A stretch of 64,000 nucleotides of DNA from Bradyrhizobium sp. CCGB01 (lineage in GTDB: Bacteria; Pseudomonadota; Alphaproteobacteria; Rhizobiales; Xanthobacteraceae). A program made the translations under genes and the position numbers. Within the stretch, counting starts at the first letter, position 1. Each line of letters begins with the position of its first letter. The DNA lies in contig NZ_JANADK010000001.1 of the NCBI RefSeq assembly GCF_024199795.1, positions 744,001-808,000 of the forward strand, given 5' to 3'. This document shows, piece by piece, positions 36,043 through 43,046 of this stretch. The notes beneath the pieces are model-generated. The model ran no database searches. It was not told the DNA's origin and worked only from the letters and a program-made list of their open reading frames with translations.

Positions 36043-37302
36043 TCAGTTGGCGGCGCGGCGCAGGAAGGCCGGGATATCGAGCAGGCTTTCGTCGGCCACG
36101 TTGCGCGGAGCCGAGCGGCCGTAGGGATCGAGCGGCTGGGCAGCAGCCTGGCGCGCATAGTCCGGATTCGGCCTTGCCGGTTGGCCTGCGGGCCCGCCGG
36201 CCGCCGGGCGAAGCGGCGGGCTGTCCACCTGCGGAAGCGGCGCACTGCGCTCGATGCGATCGGCGATGCGGCGGCTGTCGTTGCGCAGCTTGCCGGCGAG
36301 CTGCGTGAGCGAGGTTTCCGCCACTGGCGTCTGCAGCGCCGGGTCGACATTGTCGATGCCGGTCGCCACCACCGAGACGCGGACGATGCCTTCGAGGCTT
36401 TCGTCGAACGACGCGCCGACGATGATGTTGGCGTCCGGGTCGGCCTCGTCGCGAATGCGGGTGGCGGCTTCGTCGACCTCGAACAGCATGAGATCCCGGC
36501 CGCCGGTGATGGAGATGATGAGGCCGCTGGCACGCTTGATCGAGGGGTTCTCGATCAGCGGATTGGAAATTGCGGCCACGGCGGCTGCGAGCACGCGTTT
36601 CTCGCCGGACGCCTCGCCCCGTCCCATCATGGCCTTGCCCTTCTCGCGCATCACGGAGAGCACGTCGGCAAAATCGAGGTTGATCAGGCCTTCCTTGACG
36701 ATGAGGTCGCTGATGCAGGCGACGCCCGAATAAAGCACCTGGTCGGCAAGGGCAAAGGCATCGGCGAACGTGGTCTTGTTGCTGGCGACCCGGAACAGGT
36801 TCTGGTTCGGGATGATCAGAAGCGTGTCGACCGTCTTCAGCAGCTCCTCGATGCCGGCTTCGGCAAAGCGCATGCGGCGCTGGCCCTCGAAGTAGAACGG
36901 CTTGGTGACCACGCCGATCGTGAGGATGCCGAGCTCCCGCGCGGTCCTGGCGATGATGGGGGCGGCCCCGGTGCCGGTGCCGCCGCCCATGCCGGCCGTC
37001 ACGAACACCATGTGCGCGCCGACCAGATGTTCGCGGATCGTGTCGATCGCCTCCTCGGCCGCGGCGCGTCCCAGTTCGGGTTGCGAGCCGGCGCCGAGGC
37101 CTGCGGTCACCTGGGTGCCCAGCTGGATGAGGCGCGGCGCCTTCGACATCGCAAGCGCCTGCGCGTCGGTGTTGGCGACGACGAAGTCGACCCCTTCCAG
37201 CCCGGCCGTGATCATGTTGTTGACGGCATTGCCGCCGGCGCCGCCGACCCCGAACACGACGATGCGCGCCTTCATCTCGCGAATATCTGTAGTGCCAGTC
37301 AT
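36043..37302 (-). CDS. Second FtsZ (short-linker paralogue)
   Basis: A 419-residue tubulin-like GTPase. The GTP-binding signature GGGTGTG is at residues 106-112 and the T7 synergy loop NLDFADV keeps its aspartate, so GTPase activity is likely. The C-terminal peptide [11 protein letters not shown] matches the conserved FtsZ tail that binds FtsA and other partners. The main alphaproteobacterial FtsZ has a linker of over 200 residues; here it is only about 85, and no division genes (ftsQ, ftsA) are near. The ATG at 37302 has GAGGA six bases upstream. It follows the helix-turn-helix/coiled-coil gene by 50 bases. Confidence 0.88.
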
Positions 37303-37352
37303 TCTGTCCTCGCGGTTGCTCCGGCGCGCCGGGATAGAGAAAGGTTCGAGCG

Positions 37353-37901
37353 CTACCTGCTGGCAGCGCGGTCTGCTTGCACGATGGAAGCGGCCAGACG
37401 CCCCAATCGATGCGCCGCCTGTCCCGCGACCGAGCCGCCGGCCTGCCGGCCGGTCCGCAGCGCCGCCACTTCGTCTTCCAGCCGTGCCGCCCATGCATTG
37501 GCGGCCTTGGTCTCGGCGGCCGCCTGCAGCAGTTCGGCGGCGAGGCGATCGGCGCGCTCGTGCTCGCGCTCGAAAACCGCCCGATAGCCGGCTGCAACAG
37601 CTTCGAGCCGCGCGATCTCCGCCTTGAATGCCTCGATCTTGATGGCCTCGATCTCAGCCATGGAGGCATCGATCTCGACCGGCTCGATCCCAGCGATGGG
37701 GGCATCCACCTGGCCTGCCTGGCGGCGACGCCGCGGGCGGGGCGTGTAGCGGAGTTCGGAGAGATCAACGCTCACCAGGGCCTTGCCGTCATCCGAACGC
37801 GAGCGCGGCCAGCCGCGTCGCCTGGCCAACGAACGCGCGGCCTCGCGCGAGATATCGAGGCGGGTACTGAGATCGGCATACGTCAACAACGCAACGCACA
37901 T
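37353..37901 (-). CDS. Helix-turn-helix/coiled-coil protein upstream of ftsZ2
   Basis: A 182-residue protein. Residues about 6-40 ([23 protein letters not shown]) fit a DNA-binding helix-turn-helix, a basic patch RPRRRRQ follows, and residues 85-165 form a probable coiled coil. This general layout recalls KfrA-type plasmid proteins, but similarity is structural only. The ATG at 37901 has AGGAGA eight bases upstream. It is probably co-transcribed with the second FtsZ. Confidence 0.7.
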
Positions 37902-38029
37902 CGGCGCTTCTCCTGGAGCGAACCGGGAAGGCATTTCGGGCTAATGGTGGCTGGACGATGAGTCGAAGCTAGGCTGCGTTGGTTAACGGACGGTTAACGT
38001 GCGAGGGGTGTTGTTTACGGGTGGCGGCA

Positions 38030-38265
38030 CCGTGCTGGCCCCGGGGTCGCTGGACGCCATCTGCCGCGCGGGATACGTCCTGTCCGTCTTGCGCAGGCAG
38101 CGATGGAGCTTCGGGACGTTGGAGATGTTCTCAGAGATCTCGTTGCAAGTGCCGTCACAGCAGATGACGAGGTTTTCGGTGAGGATTTGTGGTCGGTGGT
38201 GCGCTCGTGCTCCACAGATCAGCCCCATCCCGGTAATGCTATCGGGGCCAGCATGGCGGAAAATG
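38030..38265 (-). pseudogene. Truncated DUF2235 gene copy
   Basis: This segment matches the 5' end and the leader of the DUF2235 gene at 32918-34249, including NLVICCDGT, NEISENISNV and LRKTD. The similarity extends upstream of the start codon (GTAATGCTATCGGGGCCAG against GTGATGCTACCGGGGCGAG). The copy has changes such as G to C in CDGTCNE and ends after about 70 codons, so it is a remnant. It lies against the left edge of the defence island. Confidence 0.8.
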
Positions 38266-38279
38266 CAAGAATGAGCCAA

Positions 38280-41200
38280 TTACCCGAGAACGTCGCGCAC
38301 ACTAACAGCGCTTTCGACACGAACAATTACGTCAGAGAGCGTCTCGTTGAGACCCGCCGCCGGCATAAGCTTGGCAAGTCCCTGATACTCACGGTGGATC
38401 GCGATTCGATTTGGGCGACGTGAACGCATCTGTCGTAGTGCCACTTTTTCAGGACTATCAAGCCCCTCCCTTACTGCCGTTCCTAGGGTGGCTAAGTTTA
38501 TCGGAACGACTAGCTCGGTTGGGAACAGGGCCGTGTAGAGTTGGGCTAATATGCCGTGAAGGTAGGAAAGCTCAGGCACTATACGTAATACGAACTCACG
38601 AGCACGCTCGCACTTTCCGATCTTGGCGATTGGCGTTCCTGCGATTTTCTCTAGTGTTGCTAGAGTCTCACCATTCATCCATGCGGGGAGCATTAGCTCA
38701 AAGACCGAGAGGGCAAAAATGCCTCTGTCATCGTCATTTTTGAGGCGCTTGTAGGGGGCTCCAAACATTCCCTCAAGGCTCTCGGGTCGCATCAACTGCG
38801 GAATTGAGCTGGGGTTATTCCGTAGCCACGTGAACAGCCATGTTCTCCAAGCTGCGGTCGTTTGAGGCAATGCCCTCGCGATTGCGCTGGCGATTAGGTG
38901 ATGGACTAGGCCCGTCAAAAGTCGAGCCGGTATGCCAGAAGCAGCAGCAATCTCATCGATCCAAGTATTTGTGATGTCGGGATCGGCATTGCGCAAGCGG
39001 ATCGCGGCCTCTGTACGACTCTTAATCCATTGCGTGTCATGGCTGCGCCGCGCACGAAATGCCGCGAATGAGCGTGCGATGAGATGCGACGCTGGCTCAT
39101 CGGGATCGGGCCCGGATCCCTTCGGCAGACGACCAAGGAAGTATTTTGCCGAAGCGGATATTGGCTCGCTCGCCGCATGTACTTGATCCAAGAGCGCAGC
39201 GAAAGGATCATCGATCTGTAAGCACTGATCGCTCTGAGAGAAGATGGCTTGCAAATCCGACCAATGACTATGAATCTGATTCGTCTTGCTTTGAAAGTCC
39301 ACGACCTTGCTGGGAACTATCAAGACCAGCCCCTGAGAGGCTTCTCCAGCCCGACCCGCTCTACCCGCAGCATTCAGAAGTTCATGCGCATCCAACTGCT
39401 CAAGTCGATTGGCATCTGGGTCAAATCGACTGTCGCCGGCAATTATCACCACCTCACTTGGCAGGTTCATTCCCTGAGCGAGCGTTGATGTTGCAACCAA
39501 CGCGCTAATTCCATCCGCGCGACGAAATAGCTCCTCATGCAAGTGTCGTTCGGGCGGAATGAGAAGCCCGTGATGGCATGCGCTCGCATCGAGAAGTGTC
39601 TCGTTTTGCGATACACGTATATAAAGGTGCTCCGCACCTCCTGCCTCTTCCTCCGCAGCTTGATAGAGCGACCGCTCCGTCTCCGTAAGGCGAATTGCCT
39701 TATCTCCTGCTGCTTCATTAACTGCATTGCAGGTGCTTTTGCAAAGGGGAATTGTCTGTGCAAAAATTAGTGTCTTAAGCCCCGTGGCGCTTGTTGCAGC
39801 GCCAATAGCCGCGCTGACTTGGTTCCCGTTGGGGGTAAGATACCAACCTCCATCATGGCGATTGCCGGTGGATAAATTCACTTCTTCCCGGAGAAGCGGG
39901 AGCAACGCGTAGTCATTGCGCGCCTTGGATACCCACGTTTGACGCAGACAGAAAAAGCCGAATGGTAGCGCCTTGAGGTTTCGCTTGAGTGCGGCGGGTA
40001 CGCTCTTGTTTTTTACGCTTCTTCTCGTCTCTGCGAGCTTTGCACGAAGGTCATTCAACGCTTCTGATGCGTAAACCACGCACCCGCGCACTTGGCGAGT
40101 GGGCTTCCACTTTATGTCTAACGCTAAACAGGAACGGCCCGTGATTTCATGCAGCCAATCCGCGATTTCGTGCGTATTCTTCATCATCGCTGACAGAAGC
40201 AGAATGTCGGCCGTATCCGCAATCGCACTCAGATTGAGAAAACAGAGCATCGCATCAATGCTCCGACGGCTCGTGTCGATGTTGCGCGGATGAAGTAGAT
40301 GGCATTCGTCGAAAACGATGAGGCCAACATCTTCGAAAACATCCCGACTGAAGCTGAGCATTGCAAGACATCGTTCCGGAGTCAGGACGCTGATGCTCGG
40401 AAGTGGCTCGACAATGCCCGGTGAGAAGATCAATTCTTCCACCAATTCGCGCTGAACTTGAGCTTGGGGGAAGGTCTTGCTCAGCGCTGTAGCCGTCTGG
40501 TCCACCAGTGCGAGTGTTGGTACCAAGAAGATTACTTTTACACCGCGCAAGAGTGACGCCGCTATCTTGAGCTCGGCCAGCTTCGACTTCCCTCCGCCGG
40601 TAGGAAAGCTGACCACCGCCGATATGCCCGTTTCTAGATAGCCTTGGGCTATAGCTTCACGATGGTTGCGCCAAACATATGGTCGCTGTTTCGCCATTTG
40701 CTTCGTTAGATCCTCCCACCGGGACGAGAGGATTCCATCCGGCGGAGGAACAGCCACGAGCGCTGAGGCAGGAAAGTCCCGCGCGACGGCCTGCAGTAGC
40801 TTGGCGAGATGGTGAGGCCCGGGGAAAATGTTGTAGGAGGCCTCGCCGTCGGGAGAGCCAATTCCTTCGATGCGTTCTTTTGAAAGAGAGATTGCGTTCT
40901 CGAATATCTGAGAGGCGCTTGCTCCGAGCAAATCCGTTGACTCGCCGAGCATCTCTCCAGCGAGTGCGTACACACCTCTCAAAATCATGAGGTAAAGAGC
41001 ATTAGTCCCTACTGTGCCGGCGTCGGCGGAACCAACTGCTGCGACGGATGGTATCGGTCGGTTGATAATTGAGCTTAGACGTCCGGTTGCTAGATCAGAA
41101 ATGGAGTTTAGAAGCCGCGCTTCGATGAGACTTGCATTTTCCGCAGGTCGAATGCGCTTGGCGATCTCGGCAGCATCTGTGCTTGCCTCAGCAACCAAGA

Positions 41201-41582
41201 ACAACAGTGCGGCGGAGACATCAGGAGAGATGGAATCAAGCGAAAGATAGCTGGGCCGAGGGCTTTCGACGGAGCCGACTAGCTCTGCTAGCATACAGGC
41301 ATGATGGGCCGATCCAGCTACGAAGGCAGCGGCCGAACGATCCTCTCGCAAAGGGGAGACAGCGACAAAAGCTTCCTCCGCAGAGGCGAGCCGCTTCATG
41401 TAAAGAACAGAGTCGCGGACGCTCTCGGGCAGTTGTTGCCCCGTGCCAGCTTGGCGGATTTGAATGCGAGCAGCAACGATCTCGGCATATACCTCAGTGA
41501 ATGTCTGAGGGAGACGCGCAAGGTCGAGCCCTTCCAGGGGAGGGGCTTGCGCGATTACCGCTACTGTATCCGGATCAAACAC
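38280..41582 (-). CDS. Ski2/Hel308-like SF2 helicase, HamB-like
   Basis: A 1,100-residue helicase. Motif I is PTGGGKS (327-333), motif II DECH (425-428), motif III SAMMKN (464-469), motif V ATSTLAQGMNLP (697-708) and motif VI NAAGRAGRAG (737-746), all of Ski2/Hel308 style. About 320 residues precede the helicase core and 350 follow. The GTG start at 41582 has AGGA seven bases upstream. The nuclease-like gene ends ten bases before it. Base composition is clearly lower in GC than the neighbours, so it is probably acquired. The gene pair fits Hachiman, where HamB senses damaged or foreign DNA. Other helicase-nuclease defence pairs cannot be excluded. Confidence 0.78.
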   Translation of the reverse strand: MFDPDTVAVIAQAPPLEGLDLARLPQTFTEVYAEIVAARIQIRQAGTGQQLPESVRDSVLYMKRLASAEEAFVAVSPLREDRSAAAFVAGSAHHACMLAELVGSVESPRPSYLSLDSISPDVSAALLFLVAEASTDAAEIAKRIRPAENASLIEARLLNSISDLATGRLSSIINRPIPSVAAVGSADAGTVGTNALYLMILRGVYALAGEMLGESTDLLGASASQIFENAISLSKERIEGIGSPDGEASYNIFPGPHHLAKLLQAVARDFPASALVAVPPPDGILSSRWEDLTKQMAKQRPYVWRNHREAIAQGYLETGISAVVSFPTGGGKSKLAELKIAASLLRGVKVIFLVPTLALVDQTATALSKTFPQAQVQRELVEELIFSPGIVEPLPSISVLTPERCLAMLSFSRDVFEDVGLIVFDECHLLHPRNIDTSRRSIDAMLCFLNLSAIADTADILLLSAMMKNTHEIADWLHEITGRSCLALDIKWKPTRQVRGCVVYASEALNDLRAKLAETRRSVKNKSVPAALKRNLKALPFGFFCLRQTWVSKARNDYALLPLLREEVNLSTGNRHDGGWYLTPNGNQVSAAIGAATSATGLKTLIFAQTIPLCKSTCNAVNEAAGDKAIRLTETERSLYQAAEEEAGGAEHLYIRVSQNETLLDASACHHGLLIPPERHLHEELFRRADGISALVATSTLAQGMNLPSEVVIIAGDSRFDPDANRLEQLDAHELLNAAGRAGRAGEASQGLVLIVPSKVVDFQSKTNQIHSHWSDLQAIFSQSDQCLQIDDPFAALLDQVHAASEPISASAKYFLGRLPKGSGPDPDEPASHLIARSFAAFRARRSHDTQWIKSRTEAAIRLRNADPDITNTWIDEIAAASGIPARLLTGLVHHLIASAIARALPQTTAAWRTWLFTWLRNNPSSIPQLMRPESLEGMFGAPYKRLKNDDDRGIFALSVFELMLPAWMNGETLATLEKIAGTPIAKIGKCERAREFVLRIVPELSYLHGILAQLYTALFPTELVVPINLATLGTAVREGLDSPEKVALRQMRSRRPNRIAIHREYQGLAKLMPAAGLNETLSDVIVRVESAVSVRDVLG

Positions 41583-41592
41583 TCTCCAATTC

Positions 41593-42369
41593 CTACGAGC
41601 TTAAGAACGAAATGGTCTTGCCTGCTAACGCCTTCATCCAAGGCCGCAATTTCTCTACGTAAAAAATCTCACCGCGACGTCGCGTTACATCTCCTATGGC
41701 GATGTCATCATACCCTTTAAAGAGCTGCTTCCGCCCTTCATCCGATGTGAAGTCTTGGCTTCCGACAGTAATGCTGAGACGATAGTGGCGAACTTGCTTC
41801 CAGATGATGTTCTCGATCGCTTTGTCGGGGTCAACATCTGGCCTCGTACAAAGCAATGCACTTACGTCAGCCGTTAAAACATTCTCGCGATCACCAGATT
41901 CGAGAAGTTTAAATTCCGGCCATACCTCGCCGGTGATCGTTTGGCGTGGATTGCTCGTTGCCTTATCCTCGAAGATCACTGCTGTCGAAACACGGCCGGT
42001 AGTCTGATCGATTTCGAGCTGCAAGCCGTCGAATCCCTTGTGGGCGAGGATCATGTGCGGCGCCCTTGTGAGCGATGATGGGCTCGCCTGCGTAGCTACG
42101 AGCCATGACATCGTTTGAAATATCCAGCCATCGCGGTGCCATGTCTCTTTCCCCTCAGGCACCGTCAGTAGTTTGATCGCAGCTGCTTGCGCGGCTTTCG
42201 TGCTTGGTGGGGGAGAGTTATTTAGACCGGCAAGGATCTTGGCGACGTGGCGAGACTGACCAAGAGCAACACGAGCAATACGTTCGGCGAGCTCGGTTTC
42301 GTCCTGCACTGCCCAGGAACATCCTCGACAGAGGCTTCCATCAAGAAAATTCGTGAGCACAATTGTCAT
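41593..42369 (-). CDS. PD-(D/E)xK nuclease-like protein, HamA-like (DUF1837 type)
   Basis: A 258-residue protein with no signal peptide or membrane segment. The pattern HKGFDGLQL (D114) followed nineteen residues later by IFEDKAT (E134, K136) fits the D...ExK active site of a nuclease, as in HamA of the Hachiman system. The rest of the protein is helical and variable. No strong ribosome-binding site precedes the ATG at 42369. It is the first gene of the two-gene island and has the same low GC content. Assignment to DUF1837 is by motif layout and context only. Confidence 0.68.
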   Translation of the reverse strand: MTIVLTNFLDGSLCRGCSWAVQDETELAERIARVALGQSRHVAKILAGLNNSPPPSTKAAQAAAIKLLTVPEGKETWHRDGWIFQTMSWLVATQASPSSLTRAPHMILAHKGFDGLQLEIDQTTGRVSTAVIFEDKATSNPRQTITGEVWPEFKLLESGDRENVLTADVSALLCTRPDVDPDKAIENIIWKQVRHYRLSITVGSQDFTSDEGRKQLFKGYDDIAIGDVTRRRGEIFYVEKLRPWMKALAGKTISFLSS

Positions 42370-42480: not shown

Positions 42481-42514
42481 AAACAAAAACGGCCGGATCT
42501 TCCGATCCGGCCGT
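42481..42514 (-). terminator. Rho-independent terminator of rpmB
   Basis: ACGGCCGGATC (42489-42499) pairs with GATCCGGCCGT (504-514 of the same kilobase) around a TTCC loop. On the minus strand the stem is followed by TTTTTGTTTTTT. It lies 73 bases after rpmB and just before the HamA-like gene, so it isolates the island from rpmB transcription. Confidence 0.9.
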
Positions 42515-42586
42515 CAACGCAAAACTTGACTGGCTAAGCCTACGCCACGCGACGCAACCTAGCCCCCGCGCGATTTCAAAATTGGA

Positions 42587-42892
42587 TTAGCTGGCCTTCT
42601 TGACCGGCGCGTCGCCGACCTTCTTCTGGATGGCTCGCTTCAGCTCGAGGGCGCGCGGCGACAGCAAGTCGGCCTTGGCCTTGAGCAGGAAGGCATCGAG
42701 GCCGCCATTGTGGTCGACGCTCTTGACCGCGTTGGTCGAGACGCGCAGGCGCACGTTGCGCTCCAGGGCTTCGCTCATGAACGTCACGTTGACGAGGTTC
42801 GGCAGGAAGCGGCGCTTGGTCTTGATGTTGGAGTGGCTGACCTTGTGGCCGACGAGGGGGCCCTTGGCCGTCAGTTCGCAGCGGCGAGACAT
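42587..42892 (-). CDS. rpmB: 50S ribosomal protein L28
   Basis: A 101-residue ribosomal protein, with [20 protein letters not shown] at its start, the [13 protein letters not shown] segment, and a Lys-rich end. It has no zinc-binding cysteine pair of the C+ type. The ATG is at 42892. It is divergent from the DUF3108 gene. Confidence 0.95.
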
Positions 42893-43046
42893 CTCTAAAA
42901 TCCTTGTCCTGTCCCCCAACGGGTTGCGGCCGCCATTCTGGGCGCCACGGGGGCTAATTCTCTGTCCTTGCAGGGAGCGGGCGGACGTATAGGGGGGAAG
43001 GGGCGGGTAGTCAAGGTTTTGGGCAGGTTTCTTGCCCCACGGCAGG

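Follow-up and report, generated by a model that had tools for sequence, protein, structure and literature searches.

In a window of 64,000 nucleotides from the genome of Bradyrhizobium sp. CCGB01 (a single contig of 9.3 Mb; window coordinates are used throughout), two adjacent genes, encoding a HamA-like PD-(D/E)XK nuclease and a HamB-like Ski2/Hel308-type superfamily 2 (SF2) helicase, very probably constitute a sequence-divergent Hachiman (HamA-HamB) system. The basis of this assignment is the predicted HamA and HamB folds of the two proteins, taken together with gene order, catalytic and helicase motifs, and patchy distribution. The original prediction, made from the nucleotide sequence and its translated reading frames, had proposed a Hachiman-like pair of 258- and 1,100-residue proteins encoded ten bases apart on one strand; the open reading frames (ORFs) are as described (Table 1), and structural matches of both proteins, gene order, patchy distribution and genomic context all agree with the Hachiman-like reading. 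What goes beyond that prediction is that the pair belongs to a separate, sequence-divergent lineage. We class it as a divergent variant rather than a plain member because one defining feature of Hachiman, a match to HamA profiles, is missing.

Predicted folds and conserved motifs

The model of the small protein has HamA as its top structural match, well separated from the next fold, and the alignment spans nearly the whole protein at 11% identity, indicative of a HamA fold with a D...ExK active site. For the helicase model, the best Foldseek match is HamB (8vxa_A, E = 4.8e-27). In a separate structural comparison with Z scores, 905 residues align to 8vxa over helicase residues 12–1100, at 17–18% identity. 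Rows for Hel308 begin only at helicase residues 270–282, and four Brr2 rows begin at residue 1 and align just 572–604 residues. Given that 828 residues lie from residue 273 on, at least 77 of the aligned HamB residues must be N-terminal of this position and, judging from this structural alignment, the helicase appears to contain the HamA-binding N-terminal alpha-helical domain (NAH) of HamB.

A search with the small protein gave 638 homologues at E ≤ 1; 120 of these were listed, and the query was aligned with 43 (44 sequences in total); the top relative among the matches listed is from Bradyrhizobium (94%). Together with an alignment of 39 diverse sequences (in which the start of the L009 row is in the wrong frame and unreliable), this set bears out the D...ExK nuclease-like motif claimed for the small protein (Table 1). 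The canonical HamA motif is D-GEXK, according to the accessible part of PMC12799240. At this position, the small family reads D...FEDK, with CEEK and similar variants in distant members; thus, the glycine of the canonical motif is not kept. Ahead of the D...ExK core lies an HRDGW stretch (residues 78–82; R79, D80 and G81 invariant in the 39 sequences), for which the canonical motif has no equivalent.

In the helicase, the Walker A and B residues are conserved across 67 sequences (Table 1). Profile comparison with hhalign links 69 helicases of the family to 8 long HamB proteins (one of these a 557-residue piece) with a probability of 100 over query residues 220–1074. The HamB models of PADLOC match the helicase in part (best 3.1e-33, 112.7 bits; best stretches within residues 259–801), as does the PADLOC model PDC-M23B (2.9e-29). 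The suggestion that the helicase is unusually long for a HamB did not hold, the E. coli HamB of known structure having 1174 residues.

For the small family, sequence links to HamA are faint. When 80 family members were compared by hhalign with 11 HamA sequences of one group, the probability was 13% (E = 0.0021 for this one comparison), and KGFDG and EDK of the family were aligned with D and ExK of HamA. PF08878 (HamA, DUF1837) is the most frequent Pfam family among the 39 diverse relatives (6 matches, best E = 0.01), and the PADLOC HamA1 models match two members each of this set at 0.0032 and 0.0096. When ten relatives were scanned singly, PF08878 matched three (0.01, 108–147 on 81–118; 0.026, 24–190 on 4–161; 0.17, 26–163 on 6–136) and matched neither the four plasmid relatives nor the remaining three. 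A sequence search for a solved structure of the small protein yielded none, either for the protein alone (three matches, E = 0.19 or worse) or for the family profile.

Conservation and distribution of the pair

Of 91 genome loci matched by the small family, the best 80 were compared, near-copies included; the helicase gene adjoins the small gene in the same order in 79, the exception (L089) stopping at a contig edge. One unbroken match per gene was found in 76 of 85 loci (L006–L090) and not in the other 9. The two genes overlap by 8 bases in 63 of the 72 measurable loci, compared with the gap of 10 bases here. By record title, the loci belong mostly to what we take to be Alpha-, Beta- and Gammaproteobacteria, with a few Acidobacteria, one Planctomycetaceae bin and one Curtobacterium.

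The distribution is patchy. The small protein is present in 5 of 197 genomes of relatives, the source genome counted; thus, the pair is not core. The original prediction had proposed a comparison of gene content at this site in related genomes: of the 98 genomes of the genus, 92 yielded an rpmB place, and 30 loci were read (two ended by contig edges), with the pair present at its own rpmB locus and absent within 1.5 kb in the other 29. Outside these 30 loci, genome G011 carries a decayed pair beside rpmB, with a 445-residue PF09994-type relative about 2 kb beyond. In this decayed copy (L006, 7869–11059; L011, from Bradyrhizobium japonicum SZCCT0153, is the same contig match), the small protein is matched only as far as residue 228, and the helicase matches cover just residues 82–256, 253–431 and 628–1099.

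The GC content of the pair is below that of the flanks in 60 of the 71 loci with enough flank (median difference 0.025). The small family was matched in 11 of 72,556 plasmid records, at one locus of viral_contigs and in none of 50,697 phage records. One plasmid copy, from Shewanella (L170), has predicted qnrVC1 and dfrA15 genes about 3 kb away from the small gene. The nearest 130 of 255 neighbouring ORFs (greedy longest-ORF rule, subset of loci) were scanned, and the commonest families were taken as the first 25 of 225 from PADLOC and the first 25 of 132 from Pfam. In this survey, carried out without a control, defence models were MkoA (3 matches) and PtuA, LmuA, Old, GajA, AriA and DpdJ (2 each), the ATPase models among the matches overlapping one another, and there were 6 phage integrase matches.

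Relation to Hachiman and competing explanations

In a tree of 46 helicase cores, 27 family members form one clade (100/99) on a stem of 2.75 changes per column, which falls outside the HamB groups sampled. A second clade (95/83) consists of seven long HamB proteins, and a third (100/100) of nine short HamB proteins and two partners of N-terminally extended HamA. How these clades branch from one another is unsettled (87/61), with several long branches, and the sole outgroup, HelY from the Curtobacterium genome, is far off.

Several observations weigh against a Hachiman assignment. The comparison with HamA and HamB profiles that the original prediction had called for bore out the helicase in part and failed for the small protein, which has zero PADLOC model matches at E ≤ 1 and no match in Pfam or NCBIfam, HamA included. 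All six PF08878 matches among the diverse relatives are sub-threshold (best 16.1 bits, compared with a cut-off of 25 bits), the weak PADLOC HamA matches are equalled by the unrelated Cas5_IIIh (0.0036) and BrxC (0.0053), one member each, and Cas4d is matched by 4 of the 44 homologues (best 7.1e-4). With 9 HamA sequences of a second group, which includes the partners of those HamB proteins with the highest BLAST scores against this helicase, hhalign gave nothing (probability 0.1%); the two HamA groups detect each other at 95.7%. In addition, phenylalanine, not glycine, precedes the catalytic glutamate. As for the helicase, residues 1–295 alone gave no hhalign signal with HamB, and by structural Z score it is equally close to Hel308 (25.6) and HamB (25.4). 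An OB-like barrel is located in the C-terminal part of E. coli HamB, as described in the available part of PMC12278908. No counterpart of this barrel is present in the helicase model, which has no strand of at least 3 residues beyond residue 764; the alignment stops at HamB residue 1064–1067 of a 1139–1174-residue chain. The absence of a control in the neighbour survey counts on the same side. Assignment to ordinary Hachiman by profile was rejected, the HamA models being unmatched at threshold in the query and its 43 homologues.

A special case of the Hachiman reading, in which the pair belongs to a subtype already named elsewhere and missed by the profiles used, such that its novelty would vanish, appears unlikely. 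The order of the genes, the predicted folds and the pattern of the active site are all as in Hachiman, and the subtype definitions compared are those of PADLOC-DB 2.0.0. However, three control HamA-HamB pairs reach, with their best models, 373, 382 and 481 bits for HamA and 1659, 1825 and 1361 bits for HamB, compared with nothing and 113 bits for this pair, and the helicases form the single long-stemmed clade outside the sampled HamB groups. The titles and the beginnings of abstracts in the Hachiman literature found contain no description of the pair, which other papers may mention in their body.

PD-(D/E)XK folds are common. Independent joining of an unrelated nuclease of this kind to a Ski2/Hel308-type helicase, so that the likeness to Hachiman is convergent, would be consistent with this abundance, with the unmatched HamA profiles, with the mere 11% identity in the structural match, with the lack of an hhalign link to one of the two HamA groups and with the separate helicase clade on its long stem; we nevertheless give it little credence, the predicted folds, motifs and conserved gene order being those of Hachiman. 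Least probable is a role in DNA repair or genome maintenance rather than defence: Hel308-like helicases act in repair and the helicase matches Hel308 as closely as HamB, whereas the pair is not core, is carried on plasmids, has defence-model and integrase matches among its neighbours (in the uncontrolled survey) and is below its flanks in GC content at most loci.

If the pair is a divergent Hachiman system, homology would extend to complex formation, sensing of DNA damage, activation and phage defence. In Hachiman, the helicase detects damaged DNA and activates the nuclease, and the cell is cleared of DNA, according to the available part of PMC12278908. By analogy, the nuclease and helicase would form a complex in which the N-terminal helical domain of the helicase holds the nuclease. 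Once loaded on abnormal DNA (for example, 3' single-stranded ends produced by phage replication or DNA damage), the helicase would hydrolyse ATP and move its N-terminal domain, freeing or activating the nuclease. The nuclease would then cut DNA without sequence specificity and thereby end the infection, with the cell itself probably lost.

A bolder reading, which we consider less likely than not, is that the family is a third deep Hachiman lineage, spread across Proteobacteria and a few Acidobacteria, with one Planctomycetaceae bin and one Curtobacterium. Its effector would be a rebuilt one, with a helix led by HRDGW and with FEDK where the canonical motif has GExK, and its helicase would be barrel-less; the system may respond to a different DNA signal or restrain its nuclease differently compared with the E. 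coli system, while PADLOC and Pfam HamA profiles are blind to it. As these profiles miss the family, Hachiman counts that require a HamA match would be too low. A distant HamAB pair of the same architecture, at about 11–18% identity, could reveal the essential parts of the nuclease, the helicase and their contact; it allows DNA-integrity sensing to be tested, in a natural setting, as a class-wide property or one particular to the E. coli complex. For rhizobia, the pair is a conserved candidate for defence that lends itself to testing.

With the HamAB system of E. coli ECOR31 (PDB 8vx9/8vxa/8vxy), the pair shares two genes in the order nuclease, then helicase, a nuclease fold over nearly the full length, a helicase core with alignment into the N-terminal region, and D-ExK and DExH motifs; it differs in its low identity (11% for the nuclease, 17–18% for the helicase), the unmatched HamA profile, the phenylalanine before the catalytic glutamate and the lack of anything matching HamB past residue 1064–1067. 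In AbpA, the nuclease is a Cap4-like domain at the N-terminus and the HamA part is inactive, as described in the accessible part of PMC12278908. Unlike AbpAB (8zue), the small protein here has no N-terminal Cap4-like fusion and retains D-ExK; AbpA (8zue_A) is absent among the 50 Foldseek rows listed for it and present in the VIA list. Two long open frames with PF08878 matches, one of 542 residues at L131 (G779, same genus) and one of 488 at L130 (G815), may encode AbpA-like proteins or HamA fusions of another kind. HamMAB, a nuclease-protease Hachiman, shares the HamA-HamB core, as far as the available part of PMC12799240 goes. In contrast to HamMAB, the 258-residue protein leaves no space for a fused protease and has no Pfam domain, and there is no third gene from the rpmB hairpin to the PF09994 remnant. 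The PADLOC candidate PDC-M23 is akin to the pair in that its PDC-M23B model matches the helicase; however, this model is also matched by three of three control HamB proteins, and the small protein matches no PADLOC model.

Composition and borders of the locus

As originally noted, the pair is poorer in GC than its neighbours: 0.543 across 38280–42369 compared with 0.651 in the remainder of the window, and 0.52–0.58 in 1-kb windows over the pair compared with 0.615–0.723 in the flanking windows listed. The lowest-GC stretch of 4,090 bases (sampled every 200 bases) begins near 38400. Both proposed borders, the rpmB terminator and a DUF2235 remnant, were recovered (Table 1). The statement that the pair lies between core genes is right for rpmB and wrong for the other border, which is a broken gene.

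Table 1 Features of the nuclease-helicase locus.
Feature	Position	Strand	Basis
HamA-like PD-(D/E)XK nuclease gene (predicted effector)	41593..42369	-	258 aa ORF
HamB-like Ski2/Hel308-type SF2 helicase gene (predicted sensor)	38280..41582	-	1100 aa ORF, GTG start
Gap between nuclease and helicase genes, 10 bases	41583..41592	-	ORF coordinates
D114 codon, first residue of D...ExK	42028..42030	-	invariant in 44 sequences and in 39 diverse ones
E134-D135-K136 codons (ExK)	41962..41970	-	E134 invariant and K136 at least 90% in 44; both invariant in 39
Walker A PTGGGKS, residues 327-333	40584..40604	-	P327, T328, G329, G331, K332 invariant, S333 at least 90% (67 sequences)
Walker B DECH, residues 425-428	40299..40310	-	D425, E426, H428 invariant, C427 at least 90% (67 sequences)
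N-terminal mostly helical region, residues 1-270, likely HamB NAH counterpart	40773..41582	-	model secondary structure, HamB alignment
rpmB, upstream border	42587-42919	-	
Terminator-like hairpin after rpmB, upstream border	42488..42515	-	intrinsic-terminator match
PF09994 (DUF2235/Tle1-like) gene remnant, downstream border, outside system	37983..38279	-	PF09994, 28 bits

Within the remnant, positions 38019–38177 give a 53-residue match, at 74% identity, to the 445-residue PF09994-type relative in G011. N-terminal fragments of PF09994 genes also lie near rpmB in three relatives that lack the pair (L141, 604–720; L146, 609–689; L148, 2474–2602); thus, decay of the PF09994 gene does not require insertion of the pair. 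An FtsZ-family gene (PF00091 and PF12327) is located nearby, at 36043–37494 on the minus strand.
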